Counted from the first letter of the stretch, positions 38,890 to 62,589 are shown. The stretch is 64,000 bases of DNA from a virus (IMGVR_UViG_3300025660_000003:62001-126000); one strand, 5' to 3'. The notes: generated by a model not told the origin, from the sequence alone. Translations and numbers: made by a program.

Positions 38890-38916
38890 GACTACTCGCC
38901 AGTCTGAGTTTCTGAG
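38890..38916 (-). promoter_or_regulatory. CTCAGA-N15-GTAGTC promoter-like site
   Basis: Read on the minus strand: GGGCTCAGA, 15 nt, GTAGTC. The CTCAGA box is 38911-38916 and the GTAGT box 38890-38895, 20 nt before the ATG of the DUF6011/HARP gene, with a GGAG just before it. One mismatch in the second box. It overlaps the stop of the 44-residue gene. Confidence 0.55.
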
Positions 38917-38918
38917 CC

Positions 38919-39053
38919 CTAGAAGTTCCGGCAGAGAGCATGGCCGACACGGCGGCGGGCCTTGCTGGCACCTCGCTTGCCCTTGCCCTTGCGGGCATGG
39001 CCGTAAGCCTTGGACTGCACCATCAGGCGTCGCATCGCGGTTCGGGTTTCCAT
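38919..39053 (-). CDS. Very basic 44-residue protein
   Basis: ATG at 39053 (minus), preceded by GGATGGAGAACACG, a leader almost identical to that of the next gene (CTGGAGAACACGATG). Product METRTAMRRLMVQSKAYGHA followed by RKGKGKRGASKARRRVGHAL and CRNF: about one third Arg/Lys. Driven by the site at 39076-39102. It resembles small nucleic acid-binding or ribosome-associated proteins by charge only. Shorter than usual ORF cutoffs but supported by promoter, ribosome binding site and leader match. Confidence 0.6.
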   Translation of the reverse strand: METRTAMRRLMVQSKAYGHARKGKGKRGASKARRRVGHALCRNF

Positions 39054-39075
39054 CGTGTTCTCCATCCTTCACCCC

Positions 39076-39102
39076 TACTACGGGGCACGATGCGGTTCTG
39101 AG
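39076..39102 (-). promoter_or_regulatory. CTCAGA-N15-GTAGTA promoter-like site
   Basis: Minus strand: GGGGGCTCAGAACC (CTCAGA 39097-39102), 15 nt, GTAGTAGGGGTG (GTAGTA 39076-39081). Drives the 44-residue basic gene, starting 23 nt downstream. Both boxes perfect. Confidence 0.65.
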
Positions 39103-39110
39103 CCCCCAAT

Positions 39111-39133
39111 CGCAGGAATCGAAAACGCCTGCG
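39111..39133. other. Inverted repeat in divergent promoter region
   Basis: CGCAGG and CCTGCG (6 bp, 11-nt gap) lie between the divergent promoter-like sites at 39076 and 39178. Spacing and location would suit an operator for a regulator of both directions, but a 6-bp repeat can arise by chance. Confidence 0.3.
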
Positions 39134-39177
39134 TTTCCGCCCGCCTGGGGAAAAATCTGGATTTCTCAGAAAGGGGG

Positions 39178-39204
39178 CTCAGAACGTCGAGGCCACCCGT
39201 AGTA
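39178..39204 (+). promoter_or_regulatory. CTCAGA-N15-GTAGTA promoter-like site
   Basis: GGGGGCTCAGAACG (CTCAGA 39178-39183), 15 nt, GTAGTAGGGGTG (GTAGTA 39199-39204). Upstream member of a tandem pair before the WGR gene and divergent to the site at 39076-39102. Both boxes perfect. Confidence 0.65.
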
Positions 39205-39232
39205 GGGGTGAGCGAGAGAACCCTGAACGACA

Positions 39233-39247
39233 GGTGGCCACGCCACC
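39233..39247 (+). other. Small hairpin between tandem promoter-like sites
   Basis: GGTGGC-CAC-GCCACC forms a 6-bp stem with a 3-nt loop immediately before the GGGGCTCAGA of the second site. In RNA from the upstream site it could pause or stop transcription before the second promoter; low confidence. Confidence 0.35.
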
Positions 39248-60369: not shown

Positions 60370-60621
60370 ATGGGGGAGCGCACCTACTTCTGCAACAGCA
60401 AGGACGGCGGGCTGACCCTCCCGGCGAATGCCGAGTCGGTCCGCCTGATCGAGCACACGCGGGGGATGCTCGCGCAAGCGGCTGAAGCCCGCGACCGTGC
60501 CAACACCGTCATCACCGAGTACACGGCTGGGTGCAAGCACCCGTTCTTCTACGACGAGCCCGGCCACCCCCACGACATCCGCCACTGTGCCGCGTGCAAC
60601 GCCATCATCGGGACCATCTGA
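60370..60621 (+). CDS. Small zinc-binding-like protein (83 aa)
   Basis: MGERTYFCNSKDGGLTLPAN to CNAIIGTI. The C-terminus has CKHPFFYDEPGHPHDIRHC then AAC (C/H-rich), a probable zinc site; the N-terminal half is a helix (AQAAEARDRANTVITEY). Start 4 nt after the kinase. Function unknown. Confidence 0.55.
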   Translation: MGERTYFCNSKDGGLTLPANAESVRLIEHTRGMLAQAAEARDRANTVITEYTAGCKHPFFYDEPGHPHDIRHCAACNAIIGTI

Positions 60622-60773
60622 TGCTCCGGGAGCTGGCCATCATCGGAGGCGTCTGTGCCCTAGGAGTGGTGCTGATGCTGCTAGGGCTCCCCCAGGACTG
60701 GTGGGTCTTCATCGTCGTCGCCGTCGTGGTCTGGCAAGTGGTCCGGGCCATCCGACAGAATCGAGACACCTGA
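60621..60773 (+). CDS. Small membrane protein (50 aa)
   Basis: ATG in a TGATG overlap and stop overlapping the next start; below common size limits but positionally convincing. MLRELAIIGGVCALGVVLML then LGLPQDWWVFIVVAVVVWQV: two hydrophobic helices with a PQDWW turn and a basic C-terminus. Function unknown. Confidence 0.6.
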   Translation: MLRELAIIGGVCALGVVLMLLGLPQDWWVFIVVAVVVWQVVRAIRQNRDT

Positions 60774-61144
60774 TGCCGCAGATCACAGTCCTTCGACGCG
60801 ACGGCAAGCTCTACGTCCGGCTCGGCCTCGTGACGGGGCCGCACGACGGCGAGAACTTCTCCCCGGAGCTGATGGCGACCTTCCGCGAGGTCAACCACCT
60901 GGAGAAGGGCATCTGCCCCTCCGTCAACGGCGACTGGTTCACGAAGGACTGGCCGTTCCTCCCCGGCAAGCCCCAGGAGCCCGGTGCCTACTGGATTCTG
61001 TTCAGCCACGGCTGGCGTCTGGCTGAGGTTTTCGAGGCGCAGGGGAGCCTCTGGTACTCGAAGACCGGCCATGGTCGCCCCGCCCCGCTCCGGGGCACCA
61101 TCATCCGGGGCTACCTCCCCATCGAGACGCCCGAGGACTGCTGA
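60773..61144 (+). CDS. Unknown protein (123 aa)
   Basis: ATG 60773 overlaps the previous stop. Product MPQITVLRRDGKLYVRLGLV to IETPEDC; beta-rich (FSHGWRLAEVFEAQGSLWYS). A longer reading from 60497 covers other genes and is rejected. Stop overlaps the next start. Function unknown. Confidence 0.6.
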   Translation: MPQITVLRRDGKLYVRLGLVTGPHDGENFSPELMATFREVNHLEKGICPSVNGDWFTKDWPFLPGKPQEPGAYWILFSHGWRLAEVFEAQGSLWYSKTGHGRPAPLRGTIIRGYLPIETPEDC

Positions 61145-61323
61145 TGGCAGGTACGACCCTCCGGGCTGGTGACTGCTGGACCTGTGATCGGAGCAGGCCC
61201 CCGATCCCCATCGGGTCGCCGCCGGAGTCCTGCAAGACCCAGGAGCCCACGCGGGAGTGGCTGCGGTGCTTCCGCAAGAATCGCCAGCAGAACAAGCCCT
61301 GCCCCGACTGGAGACGTGAGTGA
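61144..61323 (+). CDS. Small Cys-rich protein (59 aa)
   Basis: MAGTTLRAGDCWTCDRSRPP to PDWRRE with four or more Cys (CWTC...C...C...C). ATG overlaps the upstream stop and its own stop overlaps the next start. Zinc binding possible. Confidence 0.55.
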   Translation: MAGTTLRAGDCWTCDRSRPPIPIGSPPESCKTQEPTREWLRCFRKNRQQNKPCPDWRRE

Positions 61324-61556
61324 TGGATGAGCCCGAAGAGGTGAATACCCTCCCTGCTGACGCGACGCATATTGTTCTCGTCTACTACCCGGACCCCCCA
61401 GGCTGGATGGATTGCAGCGGCCCCATCACGCTCGTACACGCGAGGGCCGAGTTCCAGTCCCACACCGACAATGGGAAGGCCCTCACAACCCCCGAGGAAG
61501 GCACCTACTTCAAGGTCTGGGACATCTCAGACCCAGACCTGCCGGAGTACACCTGA
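61323..61556 (+). CDS. Small paralogous protein (77 aa)
   Basis: ATG 61323 (a GTG at 61320 overlaps the stop above). MDEPEEVNTLPADATHIVLV to DPDLPEYT. Shares DEP, GWMDxSxP, a Thr/Lys-rich TxNG segment and GTYF/GDYY with the 62312 gene: likely paralogues with two genes between. Function unknown. Confidence 0.55.
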   Translation: MDEPEEVNTLPADATHIVLVYYPDPPGWMDCSGPITLVHARAEFQSHTDNGKALTTPEEGTYFKVWDISDPDLPEYT

Positions 61557-61765
61557 TGGCTGGTGAGCCCGCACCACCCCTCCGCATAGGCGACAACCTC
61601 GTGGGCTACTGCGCTGGTGTCTTCGGACGTGACGCCTACGGCGAGAAGCGCGTCGAGGCCATCGGCTGCGACTGGGTCATCGCCCGGGAGCCTGATGGTC
61701 AGATCCGCATGTACGAGGGACCGCCCGAGTACCTGTGTCAGTTCGTGGTGAAGGGGAAGCGGTGA
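61556..61765 (+). CDS. Small unknown protein (69 aa)
   Basis: ATG 61556 in a TGATG overlap. MAGEPAPPLRIGDNLVGYCA to CQFVVKGKR. Beta-rich; a basic end. Stop overlaps the next GTG. Function unknown. Confidence 0.55.
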   Translation: MAGEPAPPLRIGDNLVGYCAGVFGRDAYGEKRVEAIGCDWVIAREPDGQIRMYEGPPEYLCQFVVKGKR

Positions 61766-62319
61766 GAAAGCTGGTCCTCATCGACATGGACGAGGTGCTG
61801 GTGGAGTTCGTGCGCCCCTGGATGCTGGAGTACCGCCCGACCCTGCCCTACGCCGCGTTCCTGCTAGACGACTGGAAGGGGGCACGCAACGTCCAGGACC
61901 GCCTGGGGATGCCCCAGGACGAGTGGTGGGCTCTGTGCAGCGCCCTGACCGTCGAGTGGTGGGCGGACCTCCCCTGGACGACCTGGGGCCGCGACCTGCT
62001 GGATCTCGTGGAGGGCTTCGGGGTGGAGTGGGCTCTGCTCTCGGCTCCGGGCCTCTGCCCGAACTCCGCGACCGGCAAGGTGCTGTGGGTCGAGAAGAAC
62101 CTGGGCGACCAGTCGAAGCTCATCCTGGCGAACCGGAAGGAGCTGCTGGCCCGACCCGGTGTGCTCCTCATCGACGACATGCACCACAACGTCGATCGGT
62201 TCCGTGCGAATGGCGGTCAGGCCACCCTGGTCCCGCAACCCTGGAACGACGAAACCCGCGACCCACTGGAGTGCGTTCGCGTTGCTCTGTGGCAGCTCAT
62301 GGAGGCCCCCTGTGGCTGA
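61762..62319 (+). CDS. HAD-type 5'(3')-deoxyribonucleotidase-like protein
   Basis: 185 residues, GTG start overlapping the upstream stop (GTGA). LVLIDMDEVLVEF (D8, D10) is the DxDxV motif I of the NT5C-type deoxyribonucleotidases; LLSAPGLCPNSATGKVLWVE is the motif II-III region and LLIDDMHHNVDRFRANGG the motif IV acids. These enzymes dephosphorylate deoxynucleotides to adjust pools. Two Trp-rich segments (DEWWALCSALTVEWWADLPW) sit in the cap region. Moderately confident on the subfamily. Confidence 0.7.
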   Translation: MRKLVLIDMDEVLVEFVRPWMLEYRPTLPYAAFLLDDWKGARNVQDRLGMPQDEWWALCSALTVEWWADLPWTTWGRDLLDLVEGFGVEWALLSAPGLCPNSATGKVLWVEKNLGDQSKLILANRKELLARPGVLLIDDMHHNVDRFRANGGQATLVPQPWNDETRDPLECVRVALWQLMEAPCG

Positions 62320-62554
62320 CGAGCCCCTTGACGTAGAAGCAACCACCCACCCGCAGTTCATCGTTCGGCTCTACGACATGTTCGATGGCTGGATGGACAT
62401 CAGCAAGCCGATCCCGAAGGAGGAGGCCGACGAGCTGCTGGCCGAGAAGACCAAGAACGGCACGCAGAACACGAAGTACGCGGACGGCGACTACTACGCG
62501 ATCTTCCCGGCCGACACGAAGATGCTCCACACGCCGGAGTTCAGAGGCCGCTGA
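62312..62554 (+). CDS. Small paralogous protein (80 aa)
   Basis: GTG 62312 overlaps the phosphatase stop. VADEPLDVEATTHPQFIVRL to TPEFRGR. GWMDISKP, TKNGTQNTK and GDYYAIFP match the 61323 gene. Last gene before a promoter-like site. Function unknown. Confidence 0.55.
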   Translation: MADEPLDVEATTHPQFIVRLYDMFDGWMDISKPIPKEEADELLAEKTKNGTQNTKYADGDYYAIFPADTKMLHTPEFRGR

Positions 62555-62562
62555 TTCGAGGG

Positions 62563-62589
62563 ATCAGAATCCCGAAGTTGTCCGTAGTA
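62563..62589 (+). promoter_or_regulatory. ATCAGA-N15-GTAGTA promoter-like site
   Basis: GGGATCAGAAT (62563-62568), 15 nt, GTAGTAGGCATG (GTAGTA 62584-62589); one mismatch in the first box. 22 nt before the metallophosphoesterase ATG, in a 57-nt gap with nothing else. Confidence 0.6.

Follow-up and report, generated by a model that had tools for sequence, protein, structure and literature searches.

Which polymerase, and which specificity factor, would read the repeated two-box element CTCAGA-N15-GTAGTA is the question raised by a 64,000-nt stretch of viral DNA (IMGVR_UViG_3300025660_000003:62001-126000; hereafter the window), which is positions 62001-126000 of the 141,696-bp record that we call G000. 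The original prediction placed ten such sites, most of them just before start codons, between positions 38,890 and 62,589, and named a phage sigma factor, a host sigma factor or a phage RNA polymerase as possible readers. We consider it probable that host RNA polymerase reads these promoters of early or middle non-virion genes with the help of a phage-encoded sigma factor of the extracytoplasmic function (ECF) type, here called S. As for the three proposed readers, the phage sigma factor gained support from a sigma-fold protein in promoter-bearing relatives, a host sigma factor became less likely, and no gene for a phage RNA polymerase was found in the records searched.

The two-box element and its geometry

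The pattern CTCAGA-N15-GTAGTA was found ten times in the window at no more than one mismatch, for which 100 dinucleotide shuffles gave an expectation of 0.04, and 18 matches were counted in the record. With a position weight matrix (PWM), 21 sites were detected in the record, all above 24 bits, and shuffled sequence gave none above 10 bits; 20 of the 21 directly precede gene starts. A scan of the record and its relatives against shuffled sequence had been proposed with the original prediction, and in both window and record the motif stood far above the shuffled level. The fixed 15-nt spacing was recovered by an unsupervised 5-mer dyad search, where GCTCA-N17-GTAGT and CTCAG-N16-GTAGT were the top dyads upstream of genes and the strongest upstream signal of the record. 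Their P values of about 1e-30 to 1e-32 are nominal, being uncorrected for the approximately 1e7 pairs tried, and in-gene control windows reached at most about 1e-7.

On direct inspection, all ten sites were present at the predicted coordinates and strands, and seven of them, rather than the six claimed, have both boxes perfect. The site at 39076..39102 (−), with GGGG and GGGGTG flanks, precedes a small gene (38919-39053, −). Those at 39178..39204 (+) and 39252..39278 (+) form a tandem pair for the 295-aa gene 39307-40194 (+); the upstream member has the same boxes as its counterpart in relative G003, with 8/14 spacer bases identical, and the downstream one lies 28 nt before the ATG. The site at 56102..56128 (−) precedes the 139-aa gene 55660-56079 (−), the divergent partners 56444..56470 (−) and 56486..56512 (+) precede genes 56076-56420 (−) and 56546-56860 (+), and at 57589..57615 (+) the predicted transcript start is 3 nt before the ATG at 57624 (gene 57624-57830). 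The remaining sites carry one or two mismatches, as anticipated: one at 38890..38916 (−; CTCAGA/GTAGTC, 19 nt before the ATG of the 382-aa gene 37722-38870, −, with identical boxes in G003), one at 62563..62589 (+; ATCAGA/GTAGTA, before the metallo-phosphoesterase gene 62612-63289, +, whose orthologue in G014, a relative of 169 kb, has the promoter too), and two at 56863..56889 (+; CTCAGG/GTAGTG, 31 bits by PWM, before gene 56909-57091, +). The start codon follows at 5-34 nt, except for the tandem site at 39178, and a Shine-Dalgarno sequence is usual between GTAGTA and the start codon. The tenth window match within one mismatch, at 59210..59236 (+), has the lowest PWM score (24 bits), lies inside gene 58871-59386 and probably arose by chance rather than as a promoter. 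Virion genes had been predicted to lack the element, and the virion block (24.7-97.6 kb of the record) indeed contains no site; with few gene starts in the block (P about 0.003), this absence is moderately strong evidence. The same site-free gap is present in G014, at 79-145 kb.

The consensus of the G000 sites is GGGGCTCAGAAC-N11-C-[AC]-GTAGTA-GGGGTGAA, which can also be written GGGGCTCAGAAC-N11-CM-GTAGTAGGGGTG. A pyrimidine-purine step was observed at fixed positions 31/32 from the C of CTCAGA, 5-6 nt after GTAGTA, in 18/21 of these sites, and neighbouring offsets gave 0-7. The same fixed-offset pyrimidine (−1) and purine (+1) were found in 41/44 sites of G014 plus its companion record G038, and in 39/52 of relative G021. 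If the purine is +1, GGGGCTCAGA spans −36 to −27 and GTAGTA −11 to −6. We place the boxes there because the initiator is fixed and some ATGs sit at that very position: in 7/44 of the G014/G038 sites an ATG is exactly at the predicted +1, and such genes would be read as leaderless messenger RNAs. Moreover, in orthologous promoters of G000 and G003 the box bases are 99% identical and the spacer bases 74%.

The element has the features of a sigma-type promoter: a pair of boxes near −35 and −10 whose spacing hardly varies, and an initiator purine a few nucleotides after the −10 box. The boxes GGGGCTCAGA and CGTAGTA do not correspond to the sigma-70 arrangement TTGACA-N17-TATAAT, and their sequences and 15-nt separation differ from the GG/GC at −24/−12 of sigma-54, so that the lack of resemblance to either, noted at the outset, holds. 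Geometry, initiator, leaderless starts, conservation of boxes over spacer and recurrence in relatives give strong support to a class of promoter distinct from both sigma-70 and sigma-54.

Versions of the element in huge-phage relatives

In relatives among the huge phages, the unsupervised search returned the same two-box arrangement with boxes specific to each lineage: CTCAAC/GTAGTA, CTTATT/GTAGTC and CTTACT/GTAGAT, along with less strict forms. In G014, a version particular to it, GGGGCTCAACTTC...TCCGTAGTA, was found at 38 sites, and G021 (435 kb) has 54 of GGGGCTTATTTC...AGAGTAGTCTAGG. In G026 (105 kb) the version is GATTCTTGGTTAC...CTCCGTGGTG, followed 5 nt later by leaderless ATGs, and the related records G041 and G043 have this version too. 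Two-box motifs were likewise detected in G035 (GGGGGGGCTRATT...TCGGTA, about 18 sites) and G025 (GAGTGTAA...CGTTAC, 17 sites), and G042 has 67 sites of its own version with the same geometry. Once the motif was masked, most of the dyads that remained were its own reverse complements. When more distant records were scanned with the version of the window, only chance-level matches were obtained, and in LR745208 (485 kb) the motif was not above chance in the 45 kb scanned. The phages that bear these promoters belong to a clade of huge phages with a family A DNA polymerase.

Exact end overlaps join some of these records. The last 127 bases of G014 are the first 127 of G038 (L150 end/L341 start), and the first 137 bases of G003 are the reverse complement of the first 137 of G018 (L151 start/L160 start). 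Each pair therefore belongs to one split genome, of at least 274 kb for G014+G038 and at least 196 kb for G003+G018. About 270 open reading frames match between the G018 and G038 arms, and hardly any match between these arms and G000. The G000 record is a fragment, and the arm that it lacks may explain why no sigma gene was found in it.

Candidate factors

Protein S, of 330-480 aa, is encoded in the G018 arm (L163; C-terminal 230 aa at L163:2323-3012) and in the G038 arm (L345:8089-8757), with homologues in G021, G025, G033, G042, G041, G043 and others. Its C-terminal 230 aa correspond to predicted sigma region 2 and region 4. The AlphaFold model of S showed two helical domains predicted with confidence, at residues 5-92 and 148-218, and nearly all of the top 50 Foldseek matches in the PDB were bacterial sigma factors (AlgU, SigH, RpoE, SigA), with both domains covered. 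In agreement, VIA-align gave a Z of 9.2 to sigma-A over residues 11-228 and a root-mean-square deviation (rmsd) of 1.4 Å when 56 residues were superposed on a region-4 structure. The model thus predicts a sigma-70 superfamily fold with region 2 and region 4. As a prospective test, G042 (536 kb) was chosen only because it carries S. The strongest signal upstream of its genes was CTTAC-N15-CGTAG, at 46 genes with nominal P values of about 1e-102 to 1e-105, and in-gene control windows reached only 1e-7. This genome also carries two other sigma-like proteins, T and F (below), so it supports the link to S without isolating S.

With S as the likely factor, we infer the following mechanism. The phage sigma would join host RNA polymerase, its region 4 contacting GGGGCTCAGA at about −36/−27 and its region 2 melting and contacting CGTAGTA at about −13/−6, and the transcript would begin with the conserved purine that lies 5-6 nt past GTAGTA. 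Early or middle non-virion genes would be switched on in this way, some as leaderless messengers. The gene for S would lie in the genome arm that is missing from G000 and was found in the sister genomes, and S and its promoters would have drifted together across the huge-phage clade. Upstream of S itself, a leader hairpin, AACGACCCG...CGGGATCGTT, is conserved directly before CAGGAGG, which is followed by a likely TTG start (L163 about 1450-1570; L345 about 7600-7760). One TTGAC-N16-19-TANNNT match was found upstream of S in G018, with similar sequences in G038 and G021, which hints that the S gene could have a host promoter of sigma-70 type; host-type promoters of this pattern were at or below chance in most records.

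Several observations weigh against S as the reader. It is present in the sister genomes G003+G018 and G014+G038 and was not found in the 141.7-kb record of the window, where searches with Pfam and PHROGs detected no sigma family. S scored below the Pfam cut-offs (PF04542, PF08281, PF04545), with a best region-4 score of 20.1 of the 25.7 bits needed and no region 2 above cut-off, and PDB sequence profiles gave no convincing match. The best Foldseek E-value was a modest 2.3e-3, and whole-chain superpositions had a high rmsd because the domain orientation, which is uncertain, is not predicted. In G033, S is present with a degenerate region 4 and no clear motif. T co-occurs with S, a correlation that does not separate the two. 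Finally, the contig SBGO01000334.1 of a deltaproteobacterial metagenome-assembled genome (MAG) holds two perfect copies of GGGGCTCAGA-N15-GTAGTAGGGG (L338:4897 and L338:10185) before gene starts.

This contig bears on the rival that survives best, that a host sigma factor reads the motif and the boxes drift between phages because the hosts differ, which we regard as unlikely. The absence of a sigma gene from the window's own record fits it, and so do the MAG copies. Counting from the initial C of CTCAGA, their start codons are 54-57 nt away, the genes encode an AAA-ATPase (WHD) and an unknown protein, and MoxR-like/VWA and RecC genes are neighbours; the pair is not due to chance, because a core of 20 bases such as this should match about 0.5 times in the collection as a whole. 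However, the merged pattern gave only 34 matches in 85,000 bacterial species, 33 of the 34 scattered and nearly all inside open frames, and the remainder of the 7.7-Mb MAG had no motif above control level. Moreover, the box drift follows the phage clade and is accompanied by S. The contig may be a pointer to the host group; alternatively, the host may have a sigma with similar specificity, or a bacterial locus may have been connected to the phage promoter. A host sigma was briefly favoured when the motif appeared in the seemingly unrelated G018 and G038, and that argument was dropped once their exact end overlaps with G003 and G014 were seen.

It is less probable still that the specificity factor is T, either by itself or in partnership, holding region 4 of the holoenzyme (a split sigma, or the T4 gp33 type). 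T is a protein of 200-217 aa with two tandem sigma-region-4-like domains (L161:12321-12971(−), L219:11416-12021(−) and L343:18094-18720(−)), strongly conserved in promoter-bearing phages and found in G018, G038, G021, G042, G025 and G033; the G021 protein matches Pfam Sigma70_r4_2 at 1.7e-12. Nevertheless, T lacks the region 2 that would open the −10 box, and S is preferred because T changes little where the upstream boxes change, and S diverges. Two further proteins were considered and rejected. The F family has a sigma-region-2-like motif, a C-terminal helix-turn-helix and a weak ECF match, and occurs at 19 loci in about 19 records (L314-L332, L225:18752-19789(−), L246:12964-13641(−)). Its motif, GIDL..HEVRKLFYAGF..DPEDVLQEIYKGLL..KSSFGHYVHMV, is real in G021, G026, G042 and others, and F was discarded as the common factor since it was not found in G000, G003+G018 or G014+G038. 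A helix-turn-helix protein with a weak Sigma70_r4 match (L060:7836-8210(−)) is absent from G014.

Fixed bipartite sites near gene starts would also suit an activator, so the boxes could be an operator or activator site (a repressor array, a stoperator or a start-associated sequence) and not a core promoter; this is very improbable given the fixed initiator, the leaderless ATGs at +1, the strict orientation to genes, the −35/−10 distance and no obvious inverted symmetry inside a site. Least credible is reading by a phage-encoded RNA polymerase, since single-subunit polymerases are not known to use a −35 box, and no single- or multi-subunit family was found among the scanned proteins of the incomplete record, giant virion proteins included, nor PF00562 in seven records, even though some huge phages carry polymerases of their own (as described in PMC13282480).

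Known systems and side elements

Phage sigma factors such as T4 gp55 and SPO1 gp28 reprogram the host polymerase to a dedicated gene class. The arrangement proposed here, with S and host RNA polymerase, follows the same principle with other boxes and another gene class, as compared by description. Like ECF (group IV) sigmas, S has only region 2 and region 4, and AlgU, SigH and RpoE are among its top fold matches; the −10 boxes of several of these phages contain CGT, but there is no GAAC-type −35 box, and the S sequence falls below the Pfam ECF/sigma cut-offs. The closest parallel is gp47 of phage 7-11, a phiEco32-like phage, which brings host RNA polymerase to the bipartite promoter GTAAtg-16-aCTA, different from that of phiEco32 (PMC8948821). 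Sigmas of relatives in that group have diverged (15% identity) and use different promoters, and transcripts start 6-9 nt from the −10 element (PMC8948821). Both systems would have a phage sigma recruiting host polymerase to a phage-only bipartite promoter. However, phage 7-11 belongs to an unrelated group with unrelated boxes and has about eight late promoters, compared with 21-67 mainly non-virion ones here, where S carries an additional N-terminal region and goes unrecognised as a sigma by sequence, and where leaderless genes are predicted. According to reviews, recognisable sigmas are often encoded by huge phages that have no RNA polymerase (PMC7824862; PMC13282480), among them the group 2 jumbo phages, which have a family B DNA polymerase (PMC7824862). 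The present clade shares with group 2 the apparent lack of RNA polymerase and the presence of predicted sigma genes, and differs in its family A DNA polymerase and its unrecognised sigma-like proteins.

A literature search on the motif returned no relevant paper, and we found neither this promoter class nor the S family described. The kind of system is known; the variant, with an unrecognised sigma, clade-wide box drift, a large non-virion regulon and leaderless starts, appears to be new. Phage sigma factors are probably undercounted by annotation, S-type proteins being missed by Pfam. Metagenomes are the sole source of knowledge on most huge phages, and here promoter, predicted start, regulon and candidate factor could be read from sequence. 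With promoter sets that differ by lineage, there is an unusual opportunity to see a sigma and its promoters change together, and orthogonal sigma-promoter tools may be possible. A bolder scenario, which we hold to be doubtful, is that a sequence-invisible sigma family co-diverged with its promoters over at least five huge-phage lineages and that a bacterial AAA/MoxR/VWA locus, possibly of defence or conflict, took the phage promoter twice. If so, orthogonal sigma-promoter pairs would exist as a natural set, and infection itself would switch on that bacterial locus.

A second conserved promoter-like element, CGNTWG-N4-CCTATR, was observed at 40831-40846 (+) of the window. It has 17 sites in seven records (also G003, G018, G014, G038, G021 and G042) against 0 in the reversed control, a weaker copy precedes virion gene 22615, and it is possibly another promoter class, late or host. 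In addition, one protein in L059 (record 1-20000) matches Pfam Volactin (PF25216) at 3.4e-68.

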